Virus record (IMG/VR): IMGVR_UViG_3300023184_000460
Coordinates: 1 to 26,218 of that record
Origin: a virus
Length of the DNA: 26,218 nt
Strand: one strand, 5' to 3'
The translations under genes were made by a program, and so were the position numbers. Below are positions 1-24,800 of the stretch, piece by piece (position 1 is the first letter of the stretch; each line of letters begins with the position of its first letter). The notes under the pieces are model-generated. The model saw nothing but the letters and a program-made list of their open reading frames with translations, had not been told where the DNA came from and made no database searches.

Positions 1-922
1 AACTAATTGATCTAATATCTAAATTCCAAAGACCCGCTCTTGGCCAAGTAACAAGTTCTTTTGTAACAATATAAGTACCGTTTTCTTGTTCCCTTGGTAC
101 ATAAAATTGTGAAGTATAAGGTGGCGTTACTTCTCTATTTAAAAGAAAATTCTCAACTTGGTCTAAGTTTAGATTGTAAACTTTGTTTGCTTCATAATCA
201 CTTGGTCTAATAACCAAATAATCATTTGAAAAACTGCCTCCACTAAATGGATTTCCGTCAACAATTAATTTAAGTGTGGTAGATCCAGTTGTTGTTGGGT
301 ATAAATAGTTTACAGGATATTGTTGATTGTTTAAGTATAAAATATATTTTTTATAATTGAGTGTCATATTTCTTAATGGAGAAACTTCAAACTCATTAAA
401 CATCATGTTTGTTGCCGCATTTTCGGTATAATCAATTTCAAATGGATTCTGTATTGAGGAAACATACACCTCAAATGTAGTGTCATCATCTATAGGATCA
501 TAAGAAATGTTAATTGCTGTTTGTTGTGTTATAAACTTTGGTGTCTTTGAATTAATTTCTAAACCGGCGGGAAAATAATTAAGAATTTTAGTAATTGACA
601 CTGACATTCTTTTAACAAGGGACCCATATTCAGTAAAGTTAGTAACTTGAGATAAATCATAATTTGGGTAAACTCTATAATTGTTTGCCAAAATATCTGC
701 AGACTCAACATTGTTTTCAATATTAATAGACTCTAAGTTAATTGGTTCTGAGAATGTTCCAATGTTGAATGTACGATTTTGTTTTTCGCTAATTCCTGTT
801 GTAAAGTTAAAATTTGCTTGCGTTAAACCTCCGCCAGTGACTAACTGAACGCCAACCAAGTTATTTGAGAACTGATTGGCGGCACTACTTTGTGGTGGAC
901 AAGTAAATTTATTTATAGCCAT
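1..922 (-). CDS. Partial structural protein of the baseplate/tail operon, C-terminus beyond the window
   Basis: An open frame runs from ATG at 922-920 to the left edge with no stop, giving about 307 codons. The protein begins MAINKFTCPPQSSAANQF. Its ATG shares one base with the TAA of the gene before it (TAATG), the same coupling seen at 3027-3031, which supports this start. The visible part is rich in Asn, Thr, Ser and Tyr, looks mostly beta-structured, and has no signal peptide or membrane segment. I do not recognise the family. Its place as the last visible gene of the gp25-gp6 operon, and a composition like its neighbours, suggest a virion component such as a baseplate-attached or fibre-like protein; that is inference. 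The true length is unknown. Confidence 0.8.
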   Translation of the reverse strand, partial: MAINKFTCPPQSSAANQFSNNLVGVQLVTGGGLTQANFNFTTGISEKQNRTFNIGTFSEPINLESINIENNVESADILANNYRVYPNYDLSQVTNFTEYGSLVKRMSVSITKILNYFPAGLEINSKTPKFITQQTAINISYDPIDDDTTFEVYVSSIQNPFEIDYTENAATNMMFNEFEVSPLRNMTLNYKKYILYLNNQQYPVNYLYPTTTGSTTLKLIVDGNPFSGGSFSNDYLVIRPSDYEANKVYNLNLDQVENFLLNREVTPPYTSQFYVPREQENGTYIVTKELVTWPRAGLWNLDIRSIS

Positions 923-1827
923 TAAGCGGTTATATTATTAAAAGCCTTAGAGAAGTCGATATTTTCACCACGATCCTGTCTAACTTCATAAAGAAGTGTA
1001 TTGAACTGATCTTTGATTTCGTACAAATTGTATTGTTTGTAAATATTGTTATTCGCATCATAAATAGTGTAGATACCGTCTTCAATTGATTTAGTTTGAT
1101 TGCCATAAAGCGCAATTGCAAGTGTTGATATATCTTGATCAACAATTTCAATTTCAGTTGTAATGGGGTTAAAATAAGTATTTGTTATAACAATACTTTG
1201 ATTTGGTTGTCCAATATACGGAGTCGCACTTGGTTTGTTTGTTGGTGACGATGAAGGTGACACAGTACAATAAATTAAATTGGTTGCTCCCTCAACATAC
1301 CTATATCTTATAGATTTTTGAATTGTGTTGGTCAAATTTTGGACAACTGGTTCACAATAAAAACACGATGTGATTATTCTAAAGAAATTAGGTATTTTAG
1401 TACCATCAGGATTTAAATACTCAACTCTAAATCCAACTAAACCTTGGTTAACAAATTTGTTCTTATATTCTGTGGGTACATTATTTAAATCAATTACAAT
1501 ACCTTTAACATTTGGTAATGAAGATAAAACACCACAATCTGTGATTATTGTTCTGATTTCTGCAGGTCTAATCATAAGGGTGTAAATTCCCAATTTAGTG
1601 AATTGATCCGCAGGTAATTTCAAATTATATAAACCACCCAAAATTTCTACCGAGCTACCACCAGTATTTGCGTTGTTAAAATATGGTCTCAATACATCTT
1701 GAGAATTAAGCGTTGTTAATGTAAAGTTTTGCGTGTCATCTCTTGATTCAGTGTAGACCATTACAATCTGCACATCTTCAGGACTAACATCCGCTGGTCT
1801 TATCGTACCATAATTTCCTGTTGCCAT
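922..1827 (-). CDS. Hypothetical structural protein, 301 residues, baseplate/tail operon
   Basis: A complete 301-codon gene starting MATGNYGTIRPADVSPEDV. It has no recognisable enzyme motif, signal peptide or membrane helix. The sequence is beta-rich and Asn/Thr/Ile/Tyr-rich, as in phage tail proteins, with two close cysteines (SCFYCEP) mid-protein and a short Ser/Pro/Thr-rich linker after them. The early VSPEDV resembles VSPENV near the start of the preceding 391-residue protein, a faint hint of a common N-terminal attachment element. The gene starts 26 bases after the previous stop and its stop overlaps the next start by one base, so it is translated within the late structural operon. Its role is inferred only from position. 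No Shine-Dalgarno sequence precedes the ATG. Confidence 0.8.
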   Translation of the reverse strand: MATGNYGTIRPADVSPEDVQIVMVYTESRDDTQNFTLTTLNSQDVLRPYFNNANTGGSSVEILGGLYNLKLPADQFTKLGIYTLMIRPAEIRTIITDCGVLSSLPNVKGIVIDLNNVPTEYKNKFVNQGLVGFRVEYLNPDGTKIPNFFRIITSCFYCEPVVQNLTNTIQKSIRYRYVEGATNLIYCTVSPSSSPTNKPSATPYIGQPNQSIVITNTYFNPITTEIEIVDQDISTLAIALYGNQTKSIEDGIYTIYDANNNIYKQYNLYEIKDQFNTLLYEVRQDRGENIDFSKAFNNITA

Positions 1828-1853: not shown

Positions 1854-3029
1854 TTATGTAGACACTTTTTCTATAATAAAAAACTTGTATCCGTATTTTT
1901 CTAAATCACCAACACTATCAACCTCGCCCAATCTCATGATATATTCCAAAGGAGAATTTTTTCCCCTTTCAATAAAAACATTTGAAACGATTTCAGGTTG
2001 GTCTATTACATTAATAAGCGCCTCGTTTTTTGTTATCGCACTTAATTCTAAATCACCAGGTACTAAACCATATGAATCGGCAAAATAAATTGTGAAATCT
2101 TCATAGTCATGGTAGATCACACCATTTACGGTATATGCGGTGTATGTATTTGTAATATCAGGACCAAAGTAAGTTCCAATAACTCCTGTCGTACCTGTTA
2201 CTTGTAATCCCAATTTATATTTTCCTTGATCTAAATTAACTTTTGGTCCAAATTGTGATAAGTCATTCAAAGTTGATTCAGTAAAACCTGTAATAGGAAA
2301 AGGTACTGTTGTATAATTGTATGAATAGTAATCAACAATGTTGGTATTTGAGTCCCCCGTAAAAATATAGTCATAACTTACTGGTGTTGCTGACCAACTA
2401 CCTCCGGCAGGATAAAAAACCATGTTACCTTGAGGATTTGTTATTGTAACATTTGTAAATGGGACCACCAAAGGTTTTTGTACTTTTGAAATCCCCCATG
2501 GCGAATTAGCCGTTAATGTTATTATGTACTCCGTACTAGCATTTGGGTATGTGTGGGATATTGGCGTGATTCCTAATACCACTTGTGGTGGTGTACCGTC
2601 ACCCCAATCTAAAATATATGTTACAAGTTGTAAAAATTTTATTAGTTCTAAATCTGAGGTGTTATAAAATTTGAATGTGTATGGGTTAATTGTGTCACCT
2701 GTAACAATAAAGTTGTTTAAAACATCTTTTTGCAAAATCATACCATCAGTAGGACTGTAATATCCTAAATCTACGGTAGATTCTGTGATCATAATATTGA
2801 CCGATAAACCCGTTAAAAATGAAGTTCCCCCTGTGTTACCACTTAATAGATAAGACATCGGTAAATAGACTCCTGTCGTTCCTGTGGTTACTGTGGTAGC
2901 GGTAGTTGCCGTTAAACAACAAGGATCTATTATTGTTGTAATATCAGTTTCTCCCGTATATGGAACAAATACTAAATCACTTTTAACATTTTCAGGTGAA
3001 ACAATAAAATTATACTGTTGTAATTCCAT
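1854..3029 (-). CDS. Tail/baseplate-associated protein with a PKD-like domain
   Basis: A 391-residue protein. Residues about 138-190 have the hallmarks of a PKD (polycystic kidney disease-type, Ig-like) domain: WGDGTP at 142-147, HTYP at 159-162, then a beta strand ending TLTANSPWG. PKD domains are extracellular beta-sandwiches common in surface-binding and carbohydrate-associated proteins, and in phages they decorate fibres and baseplates. A Thr-rich stretch (about 39-52) precedes a possible second beta domain. No signal peptide is seen, as expected for a virion protein assembled in the cytoplasm. The start ATG overlaps the TAA of the 268-residue gene by one base (TAATG), implying translational coupling. 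A role in host-surface contact is inference; the PKD assignment by motif is fairly secure. Confidence 0.82.
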   Translation of the reverse strand: MELQQYNFIVSPENVKSDLVFVPYTGETDITTIIDPCCLTATTATTVTTGTTGVYLPMSYLLSGNTGGTSFLTGLSVNIMITESTVDLGYYSPTDGMILQKDVLNNFIVTGDTINPYTFKFYNTSDLELIKFLQLVTYILDWGDGTPPQVVLGITPISHTYPNASTEYIITLTANSPWGISKVQKPLVVPFTNVTITNPQGNMVFYPAGGSWSATPVSYDYIFTGDSNTNIVDYYSYNYTTVPFPITGFTESTLNDLSQFGPKVNLDQGKYKLGLQVTGTTGVIGTYFGPDITNTYTAYTVNGVIYHDYEDFTIYFADSYGLVPGDLELSAITKNEALINVIDQPEIVSNVFIERGKNSPLEYIMRLGEVDSVGDLEKYGYKFFIIEKVST

Positions 3030-3835
3030 TATGGGTTAACATATTCATACCAAGTTATCGGTGAATTATTATCTCCAAGTCTAAGACCAGTTGAGGTAGA
3101 AAACACTTCGTATGTTTGATTACTATAATCTAAGTCTACTTTATAGTAGTTATAGTCTGAATGGTTAAATGTAAACTTACCAGGAAGTAATAATGTTTGT
3201 TTTACATTAGTCATTTGTTTGAAAACTCCTGTTATTGCATCAAAAAACTTTGCGGACATATAAAAAGTATTGACATCAATAAAATCACGACTTCTTAACC
3301 AATAAATAAAGAATCCTTCTTTATCTGAACCAATGTAATCTAAAATCATTTCTGGTTTTTTTATTTCAACAGGTGGTAATGTTGGCGATAAAGTTGCCGT
3401 TTGTGTTAAACCTTGTTGCGTAGGAAGAATAATTGACAAATATAAATTTTGTACCGTATCATCGGGACTATCATAAAAATCCAATTTAAAAAAAGACTTT
3501 GTAAATGACTTTGAGTAGTAATAAACATCCTGTACTGAAAAACCATTGTTCAAATAATTGGGGGACCAATTACCTACAGTTGTTGCAGTTATTGGTTGTG
3601 AATAGTCATAAAAATTAAACACATGTTTTATTTCTGTGTTGTCCTTTAAAAATATGTTGTGAGCAAATCTTATTATTTCAAAATCTTGTGGGCCACCAAT
3701 TACTTGATTAACGGCATCTACCTCATAGTCCGCAATACTATCATCTCTTCCCATTAAATCCCATTGCATGTTGACAGGAATATTAATAAACTTATTAATA
3801 TCGTCTTTTACAATTTTTATTCTAGTCGCATCCAT
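3029..3835 (-). CDS. Hypothetical structural protein, 268 residues, with shared N-terminal motif
   Basis: A complete 268-codon gene starting MDATRIKIVKDDINKFINIP. Near the N-terminus the phrase NKFINIPVNMQWDL closely resembles DKYINVNLEQDWESL of the 1894-residue protein and, more weakly, DQFVNIPFTQNMKEL of the 615-residue protein, both just upstream in the same operon. This suggests a common docking segment on the baseplate. The rest is beta-rich and aromatic-rich with no recognised domain, signal peptide or membrane helix. Its first 14 bases overlap the end of the 615-residue gene in another frame, and its stop overlaps the next ATG by one base. A virion role is inferred from the operon and the shared motif; the exact function is unknown. 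Confidence 0.8.
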   Translation of the reverse strand: MDATRIKIVKDDINKFINIPVNMQWDLMGRDDSIADYEVDAVNQVIGGPQDFEIIRFAHNIFLKDNTEIKHVFNFYDYSQPITATTVGNWSPNYLNNGFSVQDVYYYSKSFTKSFFKLDFYDSPDDTVQNLYLSIILPTQQGLTQTATLSPTLPPVEIKKPEMILDYIGSDKEGFFIYWLRSRDFIDVNTFYMSAKFFDAITGVFKQMTNVKQTLLLPGKFTFNHSDYNYYKVDLDYSNQTYEVFSTSTGLRLGDNNSPITWYEYVNP

Positions 3836-5669
3836 CCACTAAAGGTTCTGCTATTGTGTTTATGTCAAATGGTACTTTACCTCCTTGATAAGTATCGATC
3901 TGAGCCGGATTTATAGGTGTTGCGTAGTCACTTGGTATATTATAATTTTCAGGAGTTATTCTAAAAATTGTATTAACAAAAGGATAATGAGCGTTATTTA
4001 AAAATGGATAATCAACACCAACACCATCAGAACTAACAAAACCATAGGAATACAAATCTCTCCATCTAAAGGAAGATATTAATGTTGAGTAGTAAGCATA
4101 ATCAGGTAGTCCAATAATATTTTCTGAATTAGATTCTTCAATATAGTCTGAAAACACTCTTAATTGAATTGGGTTATGTGGTTGGTAAAAATATCCGTAT
4201 TGATTTGTTGTTGTTAAGTTGTCACTTGGTAAACTAAACCAATTATTGTTATATGTTATTTTATGTTGATAAGTAGAGATAACTCTTTCTAGTTGTTCAT
4301 AATTATTCCATTCACAATAATCACCATCCAAAGTATCACCTGTTGTGTAAAAATTGTTATAGAAAAAAGGCGTTGGGTTGTTAAATGTAAAATATTGTGA
4401 TTGAGAAACCGAAGCGTTTGAATCCGCATTATTTTGATCCCACCATATTTGTGGTTTACCATCTTTTAAAAATGTGTTAAAATCCCAACCTTGTTTTAAT
4501 TTTTGTGTCCAACCAAAATATCCTCTCCAAATTGTGGTGAAGAATAATTGTGTTAGTGGTCTGTTTTGGTTATCCCTTAAATTATCAATTTTTACATCAC
4601 AATTAAACGAAAGGGTGTACGATCTTGATCCTTCTTTAACTGAAGTTCTTTTTCTTTGATTTGGAGTTAAAGGTTTAATTTCACATTTTGTTTTGTCATT
4701 ATAAATGTTTTTTTCATACCCCGCATTAACTAAAACCGCACATTCAGCATCTGTAAGTATTTTATGTTTTCTAACATAATATTCGCTAATTGTGTCTGCG
4801 GAGTTTGTTGCATCTAAAACTCTTTTAAATGTACCTTGATTTAATGTAAGAAATGTTGTTCCTGTGTAACCAACATTTTGGATGTTAAAAATATATTCCT
4901 CAGATCCTGATCCTCCGTTTCCTAATCTTGAAACTTGGAAAAATGAATTCCCATTATAGTTTGAGGAAAGTAATACAAATTGACCTGTTGATAAACCATG
5001 TGGTACAGGACATTTAAATCTTATAAAACCTATGGTTTTATCTGACCCTTCGGTTATAACAAATGGTATGCCGTCTGAGGCGGACCAACTCCAAGAAATT
5101 TGGGTGTTAGGTTCTATTGCATACATTTTTTTCTGATAGACATTCAAATAAGGGTAACTAACATAATGTGACCAATTATATGTTGTTGCACTTACGGGTT
5201 TAAAATCTAAATGTTTTCCATTTCCAAATGTGTAACCCGAAACACGAGAATCTGTTCTTATAAAATCAAACTCAGGGTATTGTGGGAATCCGTCCCAAGG
5301 CACATTTGAGTTAAATGGGTTTGGCGGAACATTAGATGTATTACTAGTAGTGATAATACCACTTGGGTAATATGAAGACGCATTTTGTATCGCATTTGTG
5401 TAGTACAAATTGTCTCTAAATGGTGCGTATGTTGTTGATCCAGTATAAGCATTTTCAAATAACAATGTGAATTTTGTAACTGGCCTAAAAGTTGGCGAGG
5501 CTTGTCTTTCTTCATCAAATACGGTAATCAAACTAATATCCACAGTTCTGTCAAACTCTATCAATTCTTTCATATTTTGAGTGAAAGGTATGTTTACAAA
5601 TTGATCACTTAAAGGAGCTGATTTGTACCTTTGATCCGACTGAATTATTCTTGTTGTTGGGTCTACCAT
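3822..5669 (-). CDS. Baseplate/tail structural protein, 615 residues
   Basis: A complete 615-codon gene beginning MVDPTTRIIQSDQRYKSAP, two bases after the stop of the giant 1894-residue gene. The N-terminal DQFVNIPF segment is a weaker version of the motif in the flanking structural proteins. Mid-protein, VPHGLSTGQFVLL has the look of the 'HGL..G..V' element seen in many phage fibre and baseplate beta domains. The protein is rich in Tyr, Asn, Phe and Thr and has no membrane helix or catalytic motif. In T4 the genes after 25 and 6 are the baseplate proteins 7, 8, 9 and 10. This gene lies in that stretch, but I cannot show homology to any one of them. It ends in TAG and overlaps the next gene by 14 bases. 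Confidence 0.85.
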   Translation of the reverse strand: MVDPTTRIIQSDQRYKSAPLSDQFVNIPFTQNMKELIEFDRTVDISLITVFDEERQASPTFRPVTKFTLLFENAYTGSTTYAPFRDNLYYTNAIQNASSYYPSGIITTSNTSNVPPNPFNSNVPWDGFPQYPEFDFIRTDSRVSGYTFGNGKHLDFKPVSATTYNWSHYVSYPYLNVYQKKMYAIEPNTQISWSWSASDGIPFVITEGSDKTIGFIRFKCPVPHGLSTGQFVLLSSNYNGNSFFQVSRLGNGGSGSEEYIFNIQNVGYTGTTFLTLNQGTFKRVLDATNSADTISEYYVRKHKILTDAECAVLVNAGYEKNIYNDKTKCEIKPLTPNQRKRTSVKEGSRSYTLSFNCDVKIDNLRDNQNRPLTQLFFTTIWRGYFGWTQKLKQGWDFNTFLKDGKPQIWWDQNNADSNASVSQSQYFTFNNPTPFFYNNFYTTGDTLDGDYCEWNNYEQLERVISTYQHKITYNNNWFSLPSDNLTTTNQYGYFYQPHNPIQLRVFSDYIEESNSENIIGLPDYAYYSTLISSFRWRDLYSYGFVSSDGVGVDYPFLNNAHYPFVNTIFRITPENYNIPSDYATPINPAQIDTYQGGKVPFDINTIAEPLVDGCD

Positions 5670-5671
5670 AA

Positions 5672-8600
5672 TTATTCTTCTGTTGCAACATAAAGTTTAT
5701 AGAACCTATCTACCGCTGTTTTTCCATTATTTAAACCAAAGTAGAAGTGGTAAGGTGCGCCAACAACAATACCATCTTTAACTGTACTTTCTTGAGCTGG
5801 ATTTGGACTTGGATTACCTTGAAGAATTAAAGGGGTAATTGGCATTGTCCCCCCCGTTAAATTAAAACTTGAGATGAATCCAAGTTTTGTTAATGGTGTT
5901 TGATATTTTTCATCATTACTTGTAAAATCTAAATCTTGATATCTTTTATTAAAGAACCCGTTTCCATAAACATCAGTATACCAGTTATTATCTTCAGATC
6001 CAAAAATATTAGGTGTTCCGACAGATGGGTTTGGTTTTTTAATTAACCATTTATAATGTGGCACATACTGAGATTTAGGATATCCAAACTTTTGCTCAAT
6101 TAAAGGATTAAAATTATATGTTTCAATCCCTGGAGCCATAATTTTCCTATATCTTAATTCTTCTGTTGATGAAGAGAAAAATAAACCTAATATTGGTTTA
6201 ATAAAAACATTTGGTATAGACCCGACACTTCCATTTTGGTTATCACCAAAGTATATATAACTATTATTAGGCACATTCTCCGTTATAAAAGGAGAAACTT
6301 CCCACTCTGAATTTATAGACAACATTTGAGCCCAATCACCATCAATTCTGTATCCACCTCTAGTGCTATTAAAGAATTGTATTATTCCTTTGCCCTCACT
6401 GTTATTATCACCAGTTGAGATTGGTATAATTCTTTGTCTAACACCTTCATTTAATATTCTTGATAAGAATCCTAATTGAACGATGTCGGAGTTATCTTGA
6501 TATGATGTTGTTTTAATTTGATTTGCATAATATGACCCAAATTGACTATCCTCTGAAGAACAACATACCTCACTAATAAAGGAGTCCCTTGGACCTAAAT
6601 CGGTTATAGTTGTTGGAAATTGGATTTGTCTTTTGTTATATCCATAACCTGGAAAATCAGTACCAAATAAACCTTCAGAAGGACTTTTTTTACCAATAAA
6701 ATTATTTCCATCCCAAGGAGATGATCTGTAATAAAATGTATTACTAATTTGATTAAACATTATAACATCTTCACAATAGCTATAAATTGGTTTTGCAACA
6801 GAATTAAATGTTGTTCTCTTGTTAAAATTAAACATGTACAGAGATCCATTAATCCAATTGTTTTGGAACACTTGAGCAAATACCCCTCGACATGCGGCAA
6901 AATTCATAGTAAATCTAACTTTCCATTCTAAGAATAATCTTACATCTCTAAAATATTCAGGAAACAAATAAAGTTTTTTGAAAAAAGGAACATTTGTTTC
7001 TTTATAGTTTAATAAACAATAACACCCATTAACCATTCTATTTGGCAGTATTGAACATTGACCATAAGGAATAACCCCCACATTGTTTCCACTCCCTGAA
7101 TAACACTCCAAAGGTACCATACCTTCACAAGTTAATGTTTCTGTAAGTTCCGAAGTTATTGGATCAAGATCTTGATACTCACCTGATGGTAAATCAAATC
7201 CTGTGGTAGTAATTGGAGAACTTTGTGCTCCATTTGCAAGGTAGAACGCAAAATTATCATTTTGGTGAAGAGCATAACCCGTTTGAGTTCCTGCAGGTCC
7301 GTTTTGCACTTGGGACGATGTTGGTAATCTATCACTTCTCATTACAATTCTGTTTGTAATTGAGAAACTTACCCCTGGTAATGATGTATATCTGTAATAT
7401 GCGGGAGAATAAAGTGCTGTTAGATTACCTTGTTGTGCGTTTATACCCGCATAAAATGTTGATCCAGTGTTAAAGTATTCACCTATTTGACAATCTTGAT
7501 TACAAGAAGGTGAACTAAAGAGCCATCCTGTTTGCATAAACATTGGTGGATTGTTAACATTGTTTACCCATCTCATGTAAGTTCCACCAACCATATAATA
7601 AGAAGTATTATTTACAGGTAAGTTATAAGCATTGGTTGTAGACACAATTGTCTGTGTTAACGAACCCGAAATTGTACTGTTTTGATTTGTTGCCCATACA
7701 TTAGGATAAGGAGAATAACTACTCGCATTTGCGACTCCCGAATTATCATCAGTATTTAAATAATAATATGGGTAATTAGAGGTAAATGCTGTCCAACTTA
7801 ATGGATTAGGGGTAAAAGTAAAGGAAGGAAAATATAATTTGTTGGTTGAGTTATTAGATGTGTCGTGTTGTACAGGTTTTAAACCTGTTGATAGTGGTTG
7901 TATTGGGTAATTTAAATAATAACTTCCACTTACAATTGGTCCTGTTCCCAAAGATTTACCAAATATATTTGATAAGTCATATTGTATTTCTGGTTGTTTT
8001 ACGGTATGAGGGTCTACTCCTCTAACAAAAATACAAATCTCATAATTTTTATAATTCTGCATTGATTGTATAATGTTAGGATAAGTAAGTGATGTCACAC
8101 CACATACCCCAACAGCACATGTCATATCATGTAATAAATAACTTGCCGGGAAAAATCCTGTACTTCCAGTGTTGGATAAGGTAATAAACTCAGTGAAGGT
8201 CATTCCTGTTATTAACTGAAAATACTCCATATCTGTTGGGTATTGTAGATATGACTGTTCAACAGTTGTGTCACCTGTTACCGGTAATTGACTAACCTGA
8301 GGTGACTTAATTATTATATTAGCTTGGGATTGTCCTGCGTTTGGTCCTGATGGGTTTGCATAATATATAGTCTTAGGAATTGTATTACCTGTTAATGTTG
8401 TCCCTGTAATTGAGTTGGTTTGGAATTGATTTATTGTTGCTCCTGTTAGGTTAGTTAATCTATTTCCAGGTGTTGTATAACTTGGATTAACATAATTTGG
8501 GTCTTGTAGTGTAACTAATTCCCCAATACCTAATTGTTGTGCAGATCCTTGATTCATAAGGACAACTAAAACTTGGTCAAAATATGGTTGTGATCCTAAA

Positions 8601-11356
8601 GTTGGGTTTACGGTTGTTTTTATTTTATTTACACCACTGTTTGGAATGTTTGCGGTGCTTGAATAAAAATATTTATCTCGAGTATTAAACTCGTTTAATC
8701 TTTGAGAAAGGGTTACAGATGTCGGGTAAGCAAAATATCTATCATCGGGTAAATTGGGTATTGTTGGTGGTATTGCTCCATTCCTTTGAGCATAGAATAA
8801 GAATGGTTGTGGTGCCTTTAAAAGATACGCCTCATTTGGTATGTATCTATTAGGATCAGTAGAACTTAATACATCGTAACCTGAGGCCATTCTTATAAAA
8901 TCTAATGATGCCCTTGTTATTATATCAATTGTTATAGTAGGTGTACTTGCAGTTATTAAACCAACAAGAGACTCACAAGGTGGGAATGGTTCGTCACCAG
9001 CTTCATTGTTACTTAAATTTGGGTGATCTAAACTAAATGACCCAGAATAGTTCACAGGAGCTATTAAAGAATTTGGTGTTGATAAAGTGACATTAAATCC
9101 ACCTTCTTGCCCTGATTGATAGTCTGCCGCGGCTTGATCTAATTCATTGGTTATAGAGTTTGTATCAAAATCATCATCTAAGGACGCATCTTTACAATCA
9201 CACTCACAACTTGTACAATCAGGATATGAAATCATTGGTAATCCGATCCTTGGAAAACCTTTTACTTTTATTGCCGCAAGCACAGCAAATGCCGTAAAGG
9301 CGAGCGATAAAACAACAGAGAAAGCGGCTTTAAGTATTAAACCAAATTGATTTAAAATTAATCGTATATCTTTTATAATTGCACCTACATCAATAACAGG
9401 CCCTCCAAGATTTACAGATATTGAACTTATGGCGGTTTCTATTACATCTGCGGCATTATTAACCACCGCAATTGTATCGTAAATCGCATTTTTAGTTAAG
9501 ATTATGCCCAATATGATTAACACATATTTTAATATTGGCCACATAAATGCAATTAAGTGAGCAACAAATAACAGATTTAGAAGTGGGAATGTTAAAATAT
9601 TTATAAGAATGTTAAAAACAAAATATATTGGGTCAAAGTTTTTTATAATATCGTTTACTGGGAAAGTATTCACATTTGACTTACAAGATCTATCATCAAT
9701 TTCTTTTATTCCCAAGTGTTTAGCCCTACCAAGTCCATTTTTATATCTATCCAAAAACATTGCGGTAGTATAAACTTTGTTATAATAGAATTCATAGAAA
9801 CTATCTTCACAATCTAGAGCATCCTGTGTGTCCGCATAATCATCCCAATCTGTTGAGAAAGCATATGATTTATAAACATCAAATAAGGGTTGTGGGACTT
9901 TTGTAAAACTAATGTTAATTACTTGTGTTGGGTCAATTGGAGTTGCAACAATTTGTAATGTATCACCATTAGTGATCTGAATTGATTCTGGTGAGCCAAA
10001 GTAATTAATTCCATTAATGATTATCGTATAACTTTCAAGGTTATAGAAAACGGGATTTATTAACCCAAAAGAATTTGAAGCTGTAACTGTGGTTCCTGAA
10101 TTAGATCCAATAGGAATTGTTGGGTAATTGAATATTGAAGTACTATATATCTGAAAAGGGTCTTGATCATAATTTGACCATCCATGTTCTTTAACATTCG
10201 GGACTAAGAAATCGGCTCTTAAAAAAGTTCCTTGTAAACCTTGTTGTGTTTGCCATTTAAATTTAAATCTGTATTTACCTTTTGTTGGTATTCCTTTTTT
10301 AGTGTCATTTGAAATTACTTCTTCTCCAAATTCATTTGTATATATATAATCCAAGTTCATTGGTACATTTACTAAAAAGGTACCATCCCCATCAATTACT
10401 TTACCCGCTTGTTCTATATCCCATCTTTCTAATATTGGTAAACCCATAGAATCGGAATATATTGTTTGTCTAATACCTTGTATTTCACCAGGTCCCGCAA
10501 CCAACTCACATAAATTTCCTGTGTTGTTTTTTGGTTTACAACTTACTTTAAGGGCATCGTCATTTGTGTTAGAAATGATTGACCCCATGAATATTGAACT
10601 TGGTTGAATTGTAATATTTGCCAACTTAGTAAGGTCAAAGTCGGCTCTTGTTATTCCAACTTGACAAAAATCTTCAGCCCCCCAAAATGGTCTAACATCA
10701 ATGTTATATATCAGATTTTTAATTTGTGGTAATTCTCTTAAATTTGTTGAGGTTTTAAATCTTGCTCCATTAACTTGACTTTCTGTTGCTAATCCTTGTT
10801 GGATTAAATCTTGCGGAGACATTGAGAAACACCCTATATCTGAAAGATCCACATCCATCACTATGGTTTGTTCTCCAACAGGAACACCAAAAATCATAAA
10901 GTCACCACTCTCATTTGTTGTTACGGTAAATCTATAATATTTGTCATATACTTCAATATATGATTCGTCCATAAGAACATCACCTTTATTTGGGAATGTT
11001 CCTGTTGAGGCGTGTCCTTTGTATGATGGTAATTTTGGAAGTAGATTATATCTATAACCATCTTCATTTGTGTCTCCAATTGTTTTAAAAGGATATAATT
11101 CAGAAATAACTGGGTCTAATTCGTCAGTATCGTCAAGTGGAATAAAAACGGATACCTTTGCATTTGGTAAACCATACCCACCATTAACAAACACTCTTCC
11201 CGTTACAACTCCATATGTTGAACAAAATCTACTGTATACATTGTTTGCAAGGATCTTTAAGGAAAGTATCTCTAAAGATTCCCAATCTTGTTCTAAATTG
11301 ACATTTATATATTTATCAACACCGACTTCGGTTCTTATTCTATACGATTTAGACAT
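5672..11356 (-). CDS. Giant baseplate/tail protein (1894 residues) with carboxypeptidase-regulatory-like domain and central membrane-like helices
   Basis: This is the largest complete gene in the window. Residues about 48-172 look like a carboxypeptidase regulatory-like (transthyretin-type) beta-sandwich: VVTGRVFVNGGYGLPNAKVSV at its start (50-70), then TNESGDF and GVPVGEQTIVMDV at its end. Residues about 571-622 and 666-697 hold strongly hydrophobic, helix-like segments, followed by a tight cysteine cluster CTSCECDC (714-721) and an acidic stretch. The rest is beta-rich and Asn/Thr/Tyr/Pro-rich, typical of virion proteins. The N-terminal DKYINVNLEQDWESL matches a motif in the 268-residue protein. 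It directly follows gp6, the place of gene 7 in T4, but is nearly twice that protein's size and homology is unproven. A large wedge or peripheral protein that inserts into or senses the host envelope is inference. Confidence 0.88.
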   Translation of the reverse strand: MSKSYRIRTEVGVDKYINVNLEQDWESLEILSLKILANNVYSRFCSTYGVVTGRVFVNGGYGLPNAKVSVFIPLDDTDELDPVISELYPFKTIGDTNEDGYRYNLLPKLPSYKGHASTGTFPNKGDVLMDESYIEVYDKYYRFTVTTNESGDFMIFGVPVGEQTIVMDVDLSDIGCFSMSPQDLIQQGLATESQVNGARFKTSTNLRELPQIKNLIYNIDVRPFWGAEDFCQVGITRADFDLTKLANITIQPSSIFMGSIISNTNDDALKVSCKPKNNTGNLCELVAGPGEIQGIRQTIYSDSMGLPILERWDIEQAGKVIDGDGTFLVNVPMNLDYIYTNEFGEEVISNDTKKGIPTKGKYRFKFKWQTQQGLQGTFLRADFLVPNVKEHGWSNYDQDPFQIYSTSIFNYPTIPIGSNSGTTVTASNSFGLINPVFYNLESYTIIINGINYFGSPESIQITNGDTLQIVATPIDPTQVINISFTKVPQPLFDVYKSYAFSTDWDDYADTQDALDCEDSFYEFYYNKVYTTAMFLDRYKNGLGRAKHLGIKEIDDRSCKSNVNTFPVNDIIKNFDPIYFVFNILINILTFPLLNLLFVAHLIAFMWPILKYVLIILGIILTKNAIYDTIAVVNNAADVIETAISSISVNLGGPVIDVGAIIKDIRLILNQFGLILKAAFSVVLSLAFTAFAVLAAIKVKGFPRIGLPMISYPDCTSCECDCKDASLDDDFDTNSITNELDQAAADYQSGQEGGFNVTLSTPNSLIAPVNYSGSFSLDHPNLSNNEAGDEPFPPCESLVGLITASTPTITIDIITRASLDFIRMASGYDVLSSTDPNRYIPNEAYLLKAPQPFLFYAQRNGAIPPTIPNLPDDRYFAYPTSVTLSQRLNEFNTRDKYFYSSTANIPNSGVNKIKTTVNPTLGSQPYFDQVLVVLMNQGSAQQLGIGELVTLQDPNYVNPSYTTPGNRLTNLTGATINQFQTNSITGTTLTGNTIPKTIYYANPSGPNAGQSQANIIIKSPQVSQLPVTGDTTVEQSYLQYPTDMEYFQLITGMTFTEFITLSNTGSTGFFPASYLLHDMTCAVGVCGVTSLTYPNIIQSMQNYKNYEICIFVRGVDPHTVKQPEIQYDLSNIFGKSLGTGPIVSGSYYLNYPIQPLSTGLKPVQHDTSNNSTNKLYFPSFTFTPNPLSWTAFTSNYPYYYLNTDDNSGVANASSYSPYPNVWATNQNSTISGSLTQTIVSTTNAYNLPVNNTSYYMVGGTYMRWVNNVNNPPMFMQTGWLFSSPSCNQDCQIGEYFNTGSTFYAGINAQQGNLTALYSPAYYRYTSLPGVSFSITNRIVMRSDRLPTSSQVQNGPAGTQTGYALHQNDNFAFYLANGAQSSPITTTGFDLPSGEYQDLDPITSELTETLTCEGMVPLECYSGSGNNVGVIPYGQCSILPNRMVNGCYCLLNYKETNVPFFKKLYLFPEYFRDVRLFLEWKVRFTMNFAACRGVFAQVFQNNWINGSLYMFNFNKRTTFNSVAKPIYSYCEDVIMFNQISNTFYYRSSPWDGNNFIGKKSPSEGLFGTDFPGYGYNKRQIQFPTTITDLGPRDSFISEVCCSSEDSQFGSYYANQIKTTSYQDNSDIVQLGFLSRILNEGVRQRIIPISTGDNNSEGKGIIQFFNSTRGGYRIDGDWAQMLSINSEWEVSPFITENVPNNSYIYFGDNQNGSVGSIPNVFIKPILGLFFSSSTEELRYRKIMAPGIETYNFNPLIEQKFGYPKSQYVPHYKWLIKKPNPSVGTPNIFGSEDNNWYTDVYGNGFFNKRYQDLDFTSNDEKYQTPLTKLGFISSFNLTGGTMPITPLILQGNPSPNPAQESTVKDGIVVGAPYHFYFGLNNGKTAVDRFYKLYVATEE

Positions 11357-11432: not shown

Positions 11433-13274
11433 CTAAGAGAAATTAACAGATTTTAAGTTTAATACTCTAATATTAATATCTTTATTTGGGTATCTTACTT
11501 GATAGATTTGTGTTGGTGTTGCAAATATTGTATCTGCAGAAGGTTGGATTTGTCTTGTTACCGGATCAGCATAAGGCATTGATGTTTGACTTGAAGAATA
11601 TTGACCACCTACTTGGTTATAAAATAAAACATCGTTTATACTAACAATCCCATTTTCCGATTGTATTAATCTTCTTAATTCAGATATGTTAACATTTTGT
11701 CCTAAATTTCTAACAAGAGGATTAAAGAAGTCAGTAACAATTTGTATTGTTTTAGCAATAACTGATCCTTGGTTTTGACTATTATCTAAAACTACATCAA
11801 CTGTAACCGATAAGTCTATTGTTTCGGCAGCCTCTATTGAAATGTAATCATTTATCATCCTATAATTTGATAGATAGTTTGCAACATTTTGTTTTAATGT
11901 GTTTGAAACAACATTGGTTAAAGTTCCGCTAGAATCGTAAGACAACATTTTAATTCTAATCTTATTGTTTTCCTCAGTAATCGCCACTTTTGCTGGTGCC
12001 CCATATTGTGCCGGCATTGTTCTTAGGATTGAATTGTAGTCATTTACAGTCACCGCTCTATTTTGTGCCGCAAAATTAAATGAAACCATGTTTCTAACAT
12101 CTTCAGTTGTCGGTGGGTTAGCCCCTCCAATTGCAGCCGTTACATTATTACATTGTAAACTATTGATAACATTTCTATTAGCACTTTCAGATGGTCCATT
12201 TACCGAAAATGATACTGTACCAATTTGATTGATTGTATTAATACCAACATTGCTAGATAAACCACCACCAATTCTATATTGTACAAATAAAGTACTGTTT
12301 GCTGTAAGTGCGGCTCCCAATGAATAGTTGTTTGTATATCTACTCAAATCAAAACCTTTACCGTCAATTGCAAATTGTCGTAATTGTTCATCTGCAGAAA
12401 TATTTCCACCACCAAAAGTCATTTTACAATAACCTTGTGGAGTATATTCTGAAATAAACTTGTTAGAAGTTGTAATATACAAACCAACTTTAACGCCTGG
12501 TTGATCAGAAACTTTTGTAGGGTCTTCAACAAACACTCTATCTTCTACAAGAGCATCAACTTCAAAGAATCTTTCAGGTCCTATAACTAAAAAATCTTGT
12601 GGATTTGGTATTGTTGAATACTGAGTTCCTTGTTTCAATAAAACACTTGAAATGCCTAAAACATTTTTTTCAGGAAGGAATAACTCTAAATATGGTTTTA
12701 CATCATTAGGGGTTATTACTCTTTTGTAAACTTTTGTAATTCCGTTTACAACAACTTCTCTTTTTACGATCGTATAATTTATAAGTTTTCCACTTGAATC
12801 AAAATTTGGTATTTTAACCCTATTTGGTGATCCTTCAGCATTTACTGGCGATTGGAAATCTATATCGTAGACAGTTTCAAAAGGTTGTCCCGCCCCACTA
12901 ACTTGGGATCCTCTTCTTAATATACCACAATATCTTAAATCTTCTCTGTCTCCAAAAGCGGGAACTGTTATTGAAAAGTCAACTAACGCTACTGAAGGTC
13001 TTTGCCCCGGTACTTTTAAACCATAGGTTCTTGCAATATTGTAAATTGAATTTTTTTGTTGTGCAAATTGTAAAACTGTTTCTTGAATACTTCTATCTAT
13101 CTGATAATTTAAGTTATCAGTTACGGCAGCGTTCAAATCTAACATTACGGAAAAAATACCCGCATCGTTAAAATTTTGCACTAAATCGGGATAATAAGTT
13201 CTAGTAAAATTTATAAGTTCTGTCCTAACTCCTTGAAAATCCCTTGCGGTATAGGAAATCTTTTTTTCTGCCAT
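11433..13274 (-). CDS. 6: Baseplate wedge protein, T4 gp6 / baseplate J-like
   Basis: A 613-residue protein (T4 gp6 is 660). In T4, gp6 forms the ring of dimers that joins the baseplate wedges around the central hub. The start, MAEKKISYTARDFQGVRTEL, followed by a YYPDL...FNDAGIF stretch and MLDLNAAVTDNLNYQID, is the classic gp6/gpJ opening. Residues about 381-430 carry the most diagnostic core: IGGANPPTTEDVRN, FAAQNRAVTVNDY and MPAQYGAPAKV. The C-terminal part (about 480-560) has the usual TVDVVLD and a helical FFNPLVRNLGQNVNISELRRLI segment. It starts six bases after the stop of gp25, the same gene order as T4 (25 then 6), so both family and position agree. No Shine-Dalgarno sequence precedes the ATG; the leader is A/T only. 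Confidence 0.95.
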   Translation of the reverse strand: MAEKKISYTARDFQGVRTELINFTRTYYPDLVQNFNDAGIFSVMLDLNAAVTDNLNYQIDRSIQETVLQFAQQKNSIYNIARTYGLKVPGQRPSVALVDFSITVPAFGDREDLRYCGILRRGSQVSGAGQPFETVYDIDFQSPVNAEGSPNRVKIPNFDSSGKLINYTIVKREVVVNGITKVYKRVITPNDVKPYLELFLPEKNVLGISSVLLKQGTQYSTIPNPQDFLVIGPERFFEVDALVEDRVFVEDPTKVSDQPGVKVGLYITTSNKFISEYTPQGYCKMTFGGGNISADEQLRQFAIDGKGFDLSRYTNNYSLGAALTANSTLFVQYRIGGGLSSNVGINTINQIGTVSFSVNGPSESANRNVINSLQCNNVTAAIGGANPPTTEDVRNMVSFNFAAQNRAVTVNDYNSILRTMPAQYGAPAKVAITEENNKIRIKMLSYDSSGTLTNVVSNTLKQNVANYLSNYRMINDYISIEAAETIDLSVTVDVVLDNSQNQGSVIAKTIQIVTDFFNPLVRNLGQNVNISELRRLIQSENGIVSINDVLFYNQVGGQYSSSQTSMPYADPVTRQIQPSADTIFATPTQIYQVRYPNKDINIRVLNLKSVNFS

Positions 13275-13280
13275 ATAAAA

Positions 13281-13739
13281 TTAAATATTTAGAATTATAA
13301 AATCTTGAGATTCAAAAGCTGAGTCGGTAATTCTATAGTCTATTTTTATTCTTGCCGTGTGTTCTAAAGTTGCAATATTTGTAACTTTAAATTCTCTTTC
13401 ACCGTATTCGTTTACGGTAAATCCTTTATCTTCCAATCCTGCTGATGCCGGTTCAACTGTCACATTTGTAACTTGTAAATTTGGCATATATGTTTTAACG
13501 GTATCTCTAATTTCTGATTCAATATCTGAAAATGTCGGACCATCTAATGGTTCAAATATATATTCATATAATCTTGTCCCAAAATCAGGTAGAAAATATC
13601 GACTTCCCTTTCTTGTTAACAATAAATGAACCAAGTTTGTTCTAGTCTCACCTTCTGTTGTTTCAGTAACATCAAGATACCTCCCCGTAAAAGAATCTAC
13701 AAAAGGAAAAGAAATCCCATAAGTTATACCATTTGCCAT
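13281..13739 (-). CDS. 25: Baseplate wedge protein, gp25/GPW lysozyme-like family
   Basis: A 152-residue protein (T4 gp25 is 132). gp25 is a small core wedge subunit with a lysozyme-like fold that contacts gp6 and the sheath-proximal hub region in contractile tails. Diagnostic residues lie at about 34-95: NLVHLLLTRKGSRYFLPDFG, then LYEYIFEPLDG, then IESEIRDTVKTYMPNLQV, followed by the VTVEP strand typical of the family. The residues after about 115 form a beta tail ending in DFIILNI. It is the first gene of the structural block, just after the terminator at 13793-13822, and gp6 follows after six bases. Transcription must therefore start, or read through, in the short gap 13740-13792. Confidence 0.94.
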   Translation of the reverse strand: MANGITYGISFPFVDSFTGRYLDVTETTEGETRTNLVHLLLTRKGSRYFLPDFGTRLYEYIFEPLDGPTFSDIESEIRDTVKTYMPNLQVTNVTVEPASAGLEDKGFTVNEYGEREFKVTNIATLEHTARIKIDYRITDSAFESQDFIILNI

Positions 13740-14033: not shown

Positions 14034-15893
14034 TTACACAATTTCACAGGCTCCACCAGCACAAGCAGCTTCACCTCTAAGGTCTGTATTATCTTGTAAC
14101 TCAATTACTTTTGTAAGATCAACATCCGATAATGTTTTAACTAATCTTTCAAATTCTTCTTTTGTACAATCCTCAAAAGGAGCTTGGGTGTATGTTCCTC
14201 CGTTATATGGTAACACCGAAAGTCCATTATAGAAATCTCTGTTATTCCACATCCAATCACCAACTAAATCCCACTCATCTTCTTTAATAGAAATGGTAGC
14301 AGATACATTGTGCGTATTCTGTCCGTTTCTATGTCCTGGTTTAATCCATTCTTGAGACACTTTTTTAACTCTTTCTAACATTTGAAATACAGACTCATGT
14401 CTTATGATTGCACCTTCTGGCGCTTTTTGTGGTATACCAATAACCGCAGTGTCGTGAGGACGGAAAAACTCATCTTCAATCAACTCAGGGTGATTATTCA
14501 CCAAATAAGAATATATTGATTCATTCTTACCTACACGGATTCTTCTTAGATAATAATCATTATGCCAAGCGTGGATTCCTGATGATGTGCCCAACACTAA
14601 CGATGAGGTACCTGATGGTTTAACAGTTGTTGTTCTTGCTGATTTATTAATTCCAATCATCTGAGCAACTCTTTCATTTTCTTCTTTAACCATCTTAGCC
14701 GCTCTTTTCATATCATAACCCAAAACAACACCCGAACCAATACCTGTCATTCCAACACCAATAAGTGCGTCTTTTTCAGTTGTTCGTTTCCAAATGTCTC
14801 TTAGATAATGGAAATCGGTGTATCCCGCTTGTAATGTACCAATGAATGACGCCGCTTTAACTCTTGCATCAAAATCTTCTTGTGATTCAATATCTGAAGC
14901 ATTAACCTCACACAGGTTACAAAATTGAAATGGTCTAAGTGCAATTTCACAACAAGGGTTTGTTCCCCAATCTTTGTCGTTTGACAAATAGATACCCGGC
15001 TCTCCTGCTCCTGATAATTCAATTCTTTTCCAAAGACCTGTAAAGAATTCTTTAGTAATTTTGTGACGAAGAAGTACTGCCGAGTTATTAGCTCTACCTC
15101 TTTGTGCGTTTTGTTCCCACCAACTACCAGATTTACAAGAAATCATTTCTTCATCGTCAGCCGAGAATAATGAGATAAGTGCCGCTCTTCTAATACCTCC
15201 TGCCAATACCGCATCTGCAATATGACATACAATATCGTGAGTCTCAATTGGTGTTAATTTTTCACCATCTTTTTTGTTATCCAAAACTTTTGTAATATTA
15301 TGAATACAATCTTTCAATGGTTGTGGTCCTGGCGCCTTTCCTCCCGATGTAACAAGCATTGCCCCCTTTTGTCTAATATCTGAAAAATCAAATATAGGTG
15401 TTGACGATTTGTAACCCAAATACGATTCCATTAATACTTTAATAGCATCTGCCCATCCTTCAATAGAGTCACCAATTAGGTATCGTCTTGTTCTTTCTTT
15501 GTTTGGTTTTTTAAGGTCGGGTAATTTTTCAACATGATGTTTTTGAACTGAATACCCAACTCCTGTTCCTCCTAAAAGTAAAAACATTGTTTCAGAAAAA
15601 GAGTCAACATGGTCAATTGGCATATAAGCACAGTTGTAAACCCTGTTTGGTGAAATTTCAATTGATTTACCACCAAACTGTAAAGATCTCATTGACGGTA
15701 ATACTTTTTTATCATATACCATTTTATACACCTCTTCGATTTCACTTGTAATTTTAGGGTATTTTTTTTGGTGCATTTCTTTGTTACGAGTAACCAACTC
15801 TTTCCAAGTTTCTCTCCTATTTTTTTGGGGTTGGAACTTGGCATACTTCATAAAGACAGTAATGTCACTTAATATTTTTTGCGAAATATTCAT
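14034..15893 (-). CDS. nrdJ: Adenosylcobalamin-dependent (class II, monomeric) ribonucleotide reductase
   Basis: A 619-residue enzyme that reduces ribonucleotides to deoxyribonucleotides using a radical made from coenzyme B12. The active-site set is complete: NPCCE at 312-316 gives the Asn/thiyl-Cys/Glu triad (N312, C314, E316); C88 in YNCAYM and C325 in FCNLC, eleven residues after the thiyl cysteine, form the redox pair; and the C-terminal CAGGAC (C611, C616) is the swinging-arm dithiol. LLLGGTGVGYSV (about 105-116), GGIRRAAL (232-239) and the TTVKPSGTSSLVLGTSSGIH phosphate-binding region fit the single-chain Lactobacillus-type enzymes. At 619 residues it is shorter than the roughly 740-residue Lactobacillus enzyme. 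It is cotranscribed with the helicase 18 bases upstream. No small subunit or activase gene is visible, consistent with class II. Confidence 0.96.
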   Translation of the reverse strand: MNISQKILSDITVFMKYAKFQPQKNRRETWKELVTRNKEMHQKKYPKITSEIEEVYKMVYDKKVLPSMRSLQFGGKSIEISPNRVYNCAYMPIDHVDSFSETMFLLLGGTGVGYSVQKHHVEKLPDLKKPNKERTRRYLIGDSIEGWADAIKVLMESYLGYKSSTPIFDFSDIRQKGAMLVTSGGKAPGPQPLKDCIHNITKVLDNKKDGEKLTPIETHDIVCHIADAVLAGGIRRAALISLFSADDEEMISCKSGSWWEQNAQRGRANNSAVLLRHKITKEFFTGLWKRIELSGAGEPGIYLSNDKDWGTNPCCEIALRPFQFCNLCEVNASDIESQEDFDARVKAASFIGTLQAGYTDFHYLRDIWKRTTEKDALIGVGMTGIGSGVVLGYDMKRAAKMVKEENERVAQMIGINKSARTTTVKPSGTSSLVLGTSSGIHAWHNDYYLRRIRVGKNESIYSYLVNNHPELIEDEFFRPHDTAVIGIPQKAPEGAIIRHESVFQMLERVKKVSQEWIKPGHRNGQNTHNVSATISIKEDEWDLVGDWMWNNRDFYNGLSVLPYNGGTYTQAPFEDCTKEEFERLVKTLSDVDLTKVIELQDNTDLRGEAACAGGACEIV

Positions 15894-21805: not shown

Positions 21806-24800
21806 TTATTGTAAAATTGCCGTTAATACATTTGCCGCGTTTATAAACTCCTGTCTTAATTTATCTATTTGATTTTTGTCCTTTTCAATTTGAGTATAAA
21901 CATTAGAGTTTTGGTTTACAGGATAATACAAAACATAAAGTTTTGCATATATAAAAGGTAATTCATTATCCCCAAAGTTTTGTAATTCCGCTTTAATATT
22001 TGTTGGTAAATTTCTTACTGAATAATGAACAAATTTTAGAAAATCATATAAACTTCTGAACGAAACCACCGGAAGGTTAGGGTCAGACCCTCTAGAAACA
22101 CAATAGTATCTTCTGTTTATATACTCAAAAAATTTATCAGCATAAACTTGAGTTAGATCAATAGTGCTAAAATTATTCTCATATGCTTTTATTTCTGACC
22201 CATTACCAGTTCCTGAATCGACAAATACAAATGTGAACATTAAAGATACTAAATCACCAAAAGTACTTCCGGTTTGAGAATATTTATTATCTAAAAGAAC
22301 TCGTACAATTGTATTATATAAATCTTTTGTAGAAAACGAAGTCGGTGTTGGTTCATCCGTTGCAACAAATCCTTGGTACCTTGACTTTATTTGTGCCGCA
22401 CAATCTTGATTTTTTGTTAATGTATCTTCACTACTTAAATTAGCAATAGTATTAGACGCTTGTATTTGTACATTCTCTGATTTAGCTTTGTTTAATTCTT
22501 CATTTTCTCTAACTTTAGTTTGTAATTGAGAAACTAATTTTTCATTTAATGTCTGTAAAAAATTATCAACTGTCGGTAAACTATAGAATGGTTGTCTAAT
22601 TCCTTCAAATTGTGTTTTGAATCCGTTTTCAGAAACATCATGAGTAACTTTAGTAATCATATATGGTCCTGAAAACATTGGTATATTTCTAATATTAAAA
22701 TACATCATTGGTTGGATCAGCGCACACCCCATCATATCAACAGAACATGAGTAACTTCTATTTTTGTATAAATTATACAAGGAAACATTTTGAGTTGTTG
22801 ATCTTCTGTTTTTACCTAAGTTAGCCATTTGGTTTAAAACTTCCAATGATTCTGATGTTGGTTTACCAGGATCCTGAGCAACACTGAACGATGTAAATAT
22901 TTGTTGATTCTCTCGTGTAATATCAACATTAAAACCTACAATCTTATTGGATTTATCCCAATCATTTTTATTTGCCAAGTTTTCAACTAATGGATTGTCG
23001 CTCGCTCTTCTTAAATCAAAAGCGTCGTCTCTAAATCTATAATCAATATTATCATTCAAGTTAAGATGTTCACTTGGTTTGTTTACATAATAACAAAGGA
23101 ATTTAGGAGAACTTTGTCTGTAATCCACATTAAGATATGTACCAAACATCATGTTTCCAACTTCTAATGTTCCATCCGGTCTTGGTGTTGGGTTTTTCTG
23201 CGCATCTTGTACATTATAAAAATTAACATAAGCCGGTAACATAAAGTGTTGGAAATTATTCTGTACTAAAATAGTTGTAACCATGTCAAGTAATGTGTTC
23301 TTATATGAGTTTGACCCTGAGTGTTTTTCTGTTGCACCATCTTCCAATAAATTAATAATACCAAAAATGTCCACTAATATTTTATCACCAACATTTCTAC
23401 TAGCTCTATCAACCAACATAACATCTTCAAAAAGTGTTTTATTTTGAAAATCAAACCCCGCAATCCATGTATCATTTAATGCTTTAAATGTCTCCCAAAG
23501 TTCTGTTCTTGTTTGTTCCGTAAAACCTGCCTCCAAATTAGCTCTATTTGCACTATCATCATTGTTTATGAAAACATTTGGTAAACCATTTCTTACGACA
23601 GGTAACATAGTATTTAAAACAGTTCCAATATAATTTTCAGAATCTATTAAATAATTGTCCATCAAGTTATAAAAACTTGTAACATTCAAGTTACTGTTTA
23701 ATAATTTTTGAGTTGCGAATATTTTAATTATTGGTGAAAAATCTTGGACATTTTTCTCATTAAACGCAACATTCATATTAATAAAGAAGTCCGTAATATA
23801 AGAACCACTATTTTTATATTGTAATTGAGGTATTGTTGATGTTCCAACATAATTTTCTAAAGCTAACCAAGTTTTTGGATTTTGTTGTTTAGATTGTGAT
23901 AAACTTACTTGTGGTGGTAAATTTCCTTGTTCGTATGGCCCATAAATAATAGGATCCTCAATATATCTTGTTGAAAATGTGTAATATAATCTTTTATTAA
24001 AATTACTTGGGTTTCCAAATTTAAATGCGACATTGTAATTAACAAATTCTCCCAATACAAATTGGAATCTTTGGTTTTGTTGTGTGATTACATTTTCTAA
24101 TTTTGTTTCTGGTGAAGTTCCTGTTGGTTTATTTATTATCAACAAAGACCTCATTAAGTATTGGAAATTTTTATAACTTTTTTCTTCTTCGCTTACACCA
24201 TTAAGTAATCGTTTTGATCCAGGAAAACTTTCTTCTTGTACAAGATAGTTGGGTAATGTGTCGTTATAATCGTAAACAGATCTGCTGAAGTTTAAAAATT
24301 CCGCCTCAAACTTATCCATTAATTCAAGTTCAAATGTTGTGAACAACTCTTCAAAGTTACTGTATTGAGTTATATCACCATATAATGAAAAGTTTTGTTG
24401 GGTAGATTGGTTAAATAATATCTTTTTAAGATAGGTGTCAGGGCTATTTTTTACAATTTTTGAATTATCAAACCATCCGTATTGCGGTGCGTTCCAAAAT
24501 AACCTTACACTACCATTAAACATTGCTGGGTTATTAGATAACTCAACTTTCATTGTTTGATTTTTAAACGCTTCAACTTTTGCTTGATTAACATTAGAAC
24601 CAAATGATGGAAAAACATAATATGAATCAGGAAGTAATGAAGAAAAATTATTTGAAGTTTTTCTAACCACAACAGACCAAGGACTAACCCTCATAGATCT
24701 TTGATTACTATTTGGATCGAATCCTGATGTTTCAAAAATTGTTGAGTTTTGTGTGTTAAACATCATTAACTTATCATCATTAAGATAATTTTGTATTTGT

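Follow-up and report, generated by a model that had tools for sequence, protein, structure and literature searches.

A large baseplate-operon protein with a conserved hydrophobic element and co-varying cysteine pairs in uncultivated phages

The contractile baseplate of phage Milano is disulfide-linked, as shown by cryo-EM and mass spectrometry (PMC10811340). The tail knob protein gp9 of phage phi29 has membrane-active L-loops (PMC6542822), and tape measure proteins can have predicted transmembrane helices, as in gp59 of phiCD508 and gp29 of T4 (PMC11948020). In the literature on named baseplate proteins with transmembrane helices, only these tape measure cases were found. Apart from the action of the piercing spike, little is understood of how the outer membrane is crossed by contractile-tailed phages, and the question bears on the abundant uncultivated phages described here.

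Baseplate operon of the window and its lineage

The window, i.e., the whole stretch of 26,218 nucleotides that was analysed, is a 26-kb piece of virus record IMGVR_UViG_3300023184_000460. It carries the following genes of a baseplate operon, one of them coding for the protein designated here as BIG.

13281..13739, minus strand: gp25-type baseplate wedge protein
11433..13274, minus strand: gp6-type baseplate wedge protein (Baseplate_J), 613 aa
5672..11356, minus strand: BIG, 1894-aa baseplate-operon protein of a family known only from uncultivated phages
3822..5669, minus strand: 615-aa protein, always directly downstream of BIG, with a co-varying Cys pair
3029..3835, minus strand: 268-aa operon protein, nearly Cys-free
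1854..3029, minus strand: 391-aa operon protein
922..1827, minus strand: 301-aa operon protein
2..922, minus strand: gp7-type protein, N-terminal 307 aa, last ORF of the window; relatives have 995 aa (e.g., L001 12142-15126)

The reading frame of 1894 residues that an earlier note on this DNA had placed at 5672-11356 is real and lies on the minus strand; stop codons are abundant on the plus strand of the same interval. The order gp25, gp6, BIG, 615 aa, 268 aa, 391 aa, 301 aa, and gp7-like is near-invariant. It is kept in almost all loci of sufficient length, the most divergent relatives included, with the 268- or 301-aa gene sometimes unrecognised, and BIG stands between gp6 and gp7 even in relatives with about 31% identity in the best segment.

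Hundreds of BIG relatives are present in IMG/VR on contigs of up to 304 kb, and all homologues come from metagenomic contigs. The phages that carry them are aquatic and, as a group, widespread. No family in Pfam, PHROGs (phage tail proteins among its families), or NCBIfam matched BIG, nothing credible was found in PDB by sequence and profile, and in the fold search of the BIG models against PDB and BFVD no match passed E 0.001. Membership in a known family was rejected on these searches, and the statement that no named family has this layout stands. No match was obtained by tblastn in 50,697 phage records (queries: P0001, a 43% relative, a distant relative, and the hydrophobic domain alone) or by a scan of contigs of GTDB genomes, and the BIG profile found no relative in four phage genomes. 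The family, its operon position, and its combination of features are undescribed in every library searched; precedents exist for parts of it, namely the disulfide-linked baseplate and the hydrophobic tail element.

The earlier note had BIG standing where T4 has gp7. BIG does follow gp6 directly, as gp7 does in T4, but the gp7-type gene is separate and lies five places downstream. A profile made from the gp7-like proteins of three phages (Flavobacterium phage immuto, uncultured phage LR756508, and Microcystis phage Mel-JY01) recognised, in 12 of 12 long contigs, a gp7-like ORF that is distinct from BIG and about 1000 aa in length. In one-against-one hhalign comparison, this ORF matched the gp7-like alignment A4 of the three phages with 95% probability (E 3e-8); its direct comparison with T4 gp7 was negative, so the link passes through the intermediate phages. 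The BIG alignments A2 and A3 gave a probability below 1% against both T4 gp7 and A4. With no profile relation and a separate gp7-like gene in the same genomes, the identification of BIG as gp7 was rejected, and the reading of BIG as an enlarged T4 gp7 (wedge protein BW3), for which the position directly after gp6 speaks, is hardly credible. Since the family has its own gp7-type gene, BIG is an additional component beyond the universal gp25-gp6-gp7 wedge. For annotation, this means that a large gene directly behind gp6 should not be called gp7 in the BIG lineage.

A bS21-like ribosomal protein is encoded in five of 11 long contigs (L257, L163, L312, L262, and L218; 304-257 kb), and four of these pass the family cut-off. 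Freshwater Bacteroidetes phages encode bS21 (PMC9723584), which suggests that the bS21-encoding contigs share a lineage with them, and the BIG lineage is probably one of large Bacteroidota phages. The ribonucleotide reductase encoded between the DnaB-type helicase and gp25 differs among relatives. In the window (14034-15893) it is a B12-dependent class II enzyme; L044 (2156-5540) has NrdB and NrdA, the large subunit bearing an ATP-cone; and L354 (512-3521) has an ATP-cone-bearing NrdB together with NrdA. This is a swap of ribonucleotide reductase class at a fixed locus. Behind the replication genes, and away from the wedge genes, a 1470-aa ORF (21806-26218) is open at the window end. Its 1416-aa form matches phrog_52 'tail protein' at 1103-1181, and it looks like a baseplate hub protein.

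Hydrophobic element and predicted structure

The features found within BIG are the following.

10856..10969, minus strand: part of a CarboxypepD_reg-like (PF13620) beta domain, residues 130-167, below the Pfam cut-off
10829..10831, minus strand: C176, putative partner of C1598 by co-variation
9494..9628, minus strand: conserved hydrophobic helix or hairpin, residues 577-621
9266..9388, minus strand: second helix, residues 657-697, variable, hydrophobic, and amphipathic, deleted in some clades
9194..9217, minus strand: CTSCECDC, residues 714-721, with C721 only where C1447 is present
7055..7105, minus strand: C1418 and C1434, lost jointly on two independent branches
7016..7018, minus strand: C1447, putative partner of C721
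6563..6565, minus strand: C1598, putative partner of C176 by co-variation

Membrane-like hydrophobic stretches had been noticed in BIG, and they are present: 19-residue Kyte-Doolittle (KD) windows above 1.5 are confined to residues 574-632 and 664-701. The best 60-residue KD is 1.62, against an average of 0.84 and a maximum of 1.44 in 1000 shuffles, so that the clustering over 60 residues goes beyond shuffles. The best 19-residue KD of 2.39 is unexceptional against shuffles (median 1.88, 99% at 2.61). The single 19-residue peak, not above shuffles, was discarded as evidence, and the argument is therefore built on longer windows and conservation. A 19-residue KD of at least 2.08 is kept in every homologue long enough to include the region, so that across the family the stretch is no product of chance. 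Over 108 representatives, the equivalents of residues 577-621 have a mean KD of 2.13 and on average 1.4 charged residues per 45. By its best 60-residue KD, BIG exceeds all the proteins set beside it: T4 gp7 reaches 0.32, none of the other T4 baseplate proteins computed goes beyond 0.66, phi29 gp9 has 0.64, and the holin of phi29 has 1.42. By hydropathy, the element is set in an otherwise non-hydrophobic tail protein. The rarity of hydrophobic helices in virion proteins had been overstated in the earlier note, as T4 gp7, the tape measure proteins, and the loops of phi29 gp9 illustrate.

The two helices differ in how they are conserved. The first is rather conserved, with a weak polar stripe (N582, N586, His600, and Lys610); His600 is invariant in 108 of 108 representatives, and Trp606, Pro607, and Lys610 are almost invariant within the main clade. 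The second (657-697; entropy 2.1 bits) drifts in sequence and retains its hydrophobicity. It is absent from L018, L047, and L048, which retain both long-range cysteine pairs (176/1598 and 721/1447). With both pairs kept around one stretch, this stretch, if the pairs are real, is not a single-pass anchor, and we infer that the hydrophobic element forms a hairpin. In two-helix members, positive residues lie ahead of the Cys cluster and an acidic loop lies between the helices. The positive-inside analysis fits both ends on the same side in two-helix members and is weak in the others.

AF2 models were computed from alignments of 54 sequences of limited diversity. Long helices were predicted at 576-644 and 657-697 with pLDDT of about 70, in a half model of poor confidence (pTM 0.44); the C-terminal model had a moderate pTM of 0.58. 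Structure prediction had been proposed as a check on whether the hydrophobic stretches form the core of an ordinary domain, and it gave two long helices at this low confidence, with no beta domain or resolved coiled coil. Outside 576-697 the model is mostly beta-stranded, with no long alpha-helical rod of the kind found in a tape measure protein.

A carboxypeptidase-regulatory-like domain had been read at the N-terminus. PF13620 was matched at the same place in eight of eight homologues tested (E 0.0003-0.03), all below the curated cut-off (best score 21.6 bits, gathering cut-off 32.3), and weak TTL/CPD-like folds occur among the fold matches (E > 0.01). These matches are suggestive of residues at about 130-167 belonging to such a domain, and the earlier claim is to be kept at that strength.

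Cysteine pairs

The motif CTSCECDC lies exactly at residues 714-721, where the earlier note had placed it. In the main clade, BIG has 19 conserved cysteines, of which six are ever lost, and these six form three matched pairs. Pairing was scored in 108 sequences, made up of 99 representatives plus nine of greater divergence. C721 and C1447 are both present in 75 and both absent in 33, with no mismatch; C176 and C1598 are both present in 91 and both absent in 15, the two mismatches being alignment gaps; and C1418 and C1434 are both present in 103 and both absent in five, without mismatch in 108. Three more lineage-specific pairs (1349/1370, 672/687, and 1108/1599) match perfectly, 1349/1370 with no mismatch in 108. 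The pair 672/687, 15 alignment positions apart at the end of the hydrophobic region, is found in L223, L225, and L227 and in L242/L266, and appeared jointly on two separate branches.

Changes were placed on a tree computed with FastTree only and built without any Cys-bearing column. Five changes were counted for 1349/1370, two each for 1418/1434 and 672/687, and one each for 721/1447, 176/1598, and 1108/1599. Identical multi-change patterns were shared by two of 190 Cys column pairs, while for other residues a handful was found in several hundred thousand pairs, many of them from C-terminal truncation; by this control, phylogeny alone does not yield paired Cys changes. Residues that come and go as units are the signature of disulfides and not of a free-standing metal cluster, and from this co-variation the pairs are probably physical disulfides. 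The pairs 176/1598 and 721/1447, which bridge the segments flanking the hydrophobic element, are weaker than 1418/1434 and 1349/1370, having changed on a single branch each; for them and for 1108/1599, coincidence on one long branch is possible.

The Cys cluster had been treated in the earlier note as a feature standing by itself, and this view was not upheld: its fourth cysteine changes together with C1447, 726 residues away. C714, C717, and C719 are invariant in 108 of 108, as are ten other cysteines of BIG, and C721 is nearly so in the main clade. These invariant residues would suit a site in which zinc or an iron-sulfur cluster is bound by CTSCECDC, with or without the help of cysteines from the C-terminal domain, and the disulfide pairs competing with that reading are drawn from co-variation. 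C721 is nevertheless missing from 33 of 108, always alongside C1447, while C714, C717, and C719 stay, so CxxCxCxC is not one conserved unit, and two-residue units such as 1349/1370 come and go as disulfides would. A self-contained metal site at CTSCECDC was rejected on the dispensability of the fourth cysteine along with C1447, and metal binding in general is doubtful. A mixed arrangement, with C714, C717, C719, and C1445 as ligands and the remaining cysteines in disulfides, is possible.

Disulfides are unusual in proteins folded in the cytosol. An Erv1/ALR-type oxidase was not found in 11 long contigs, and the disulfides of BIG would thus form on release or outside the cell. Thioredoxin is encoded in nine of these 11 contigs; it is ordinary in phages having ribonucleotide reductase.

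Cysteines of the neighbouring gene products were also recorded. In the 615-aa protein (3822-5669) residues 306/353 co-vary, and in the gp7-like ORF (L001 12142-15126) residues 549/658 do, with 461 nearly matching. The 268-aa protein (3029-3835), unlike its neighbours, has 0.01% Cys across 38 representatives. Given the co-varying cysteines in operon proteins near BIG, disulfide fastening may spread across the baseplate.

Possible role and comparison with known systems

In the preferred reading, to which a probability of about 0.4 is given, BIG is a disulfide-stapled virion baseplate component with a sheltered hydrophobic hairpin that meets the host membrane at infection. BIG would be a structural component of the virion, where it is probably present, in a lineage of large phages probably infecting Bacteroidota. 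Its beta-rich N- and C-terminal halves would be fastened to each other by disulfides 176-1598 and 721-1447, with a local disulfide 1418-1434 and lineage-specific pairs in addition. Between the halves would lie the helical, nearly charge-free element 577-621, usually followed by the second helix 657-697, and its two ends would be held on one side, as in a hairpin but not in a single-pass anchor. Free particles would have to keep the hairpin sheltered. On adsorption or contraction it would become exposed and touch or enter the host envelope, and this contact would aid the seating of the baseplate or the passage of the tube. Exposure and envelope contact at infection are conjectural, and membrane contact of the element is a conjecture from its hydropathy. 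Of the two roles suggested in the earlier note, insertion into the envelope and burial until a trigger, both may fit a conserved element of membrane grade.

Permanent burial, with the hairpin packed against its own copies or gp6/gp7 partners and never in lipid, is nearly as likely as the membrane-contact reading, since the conservation of helix 1 resembles that of a protein interface and T4 gp7 has a predicted membrane segment. The polar stripe and invariant His600 of helix 1 are a pattern of protein packing rather than of lipid contact, helix 2 is amphipathic, and AF2 predicted long helices. In T4 gp7, too, a charge-free segment of 25 residues carries the annotation of a predicted integral membrane domain, although this wedge component belongs to the assembled baseplate of T4. 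Against burial, the 45-residue stretch (KD 2.1) has about 1.4 charges, and over 60 residues the element exceeds the hydrophobicity of a holin; helix 2 drifts or is deleted yet stays hydrophobic; and the equivalent stretch of T4 gp7 is far shorter.

Two further readings accept the membrane and move the moment or the trigger of contact. Were the hairpin to anchor baseplates under construction to the host membrane from the inside, with no role in infection, it should be of membrane grade and have its two ends on the same side, as is the case here, and the positive residues before the Cys cluster and the acidic inter-helix loop of two-helix members would suit it. T4-type baseplates assemble in the cytosol, however, and disulfide-type pairing flanking the hairpin misfits that reducing compartment, so such a tether is very unlikely. 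Also unlikely, if somewhat less so, is a redox-locked entry device, in which disulfides formed extracellularly would close BIG over the hairpin until, at the host surface, strain or reduction let the hairpin into the outer membrane. If true, this would be a baseplate component without a T4 counterpart across a lineage of aquatic jumbo phages. For testing, BIG supplies specific residues: His600 and the pairs 176/1598, 721/1447, and 1418/1434.

BIG and T4 gp7 are alike in being large, in being encoded directly after gp6, and in having a hydrophobic segment. In gp7 this segment is near the C-terminus (from 882 of 1032), whereas the hydrophobic region of BIG is central and about 120 residues long, and there is no sequence or profile relation between the two. 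In immuto, LR756508, and Mel-JY01, the nearest annotated gp6 relatives, gp25-gp6 and then a gp7-like gene are encoded in one operon, as here. Where BIG would stand, they encode a protein of 369-420 aa, and profile search found no BIG relative in them. Tape measure proteins share with BIG hydrophobic helices in a contractile tail, proposed to aid membrane crossing (PMC11948020), and differ from its largely beta-stranded model encoded between gp6 and gp7. In phi29 gp9, as in BIG, a hydrophobic element is inserted in a beta-rich tail protein; the element of gp9 is kept inside the virion until infection (PMC6542822), which for BIG is a hypothesis. The gp9 region 417-491 is rich in Gly, Ala, Ser, and Met with a mean KD of 0.16, the BIG element being far more hydrophobic, and the phi29 tail is short and non-contractile, unlike the contractile-type baseplate of BIG. 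Milano and BIG both have many conserved cysteines in contractile-tail baseplate proteins (PMC10811340). The disulfides of Milano are often between subunits and those of BIG are deduced from co-variation, a likeness of trait rather than of demonstrated homology, and BIG has the Milano-type trait of conserved cysteines behaving as pairs.
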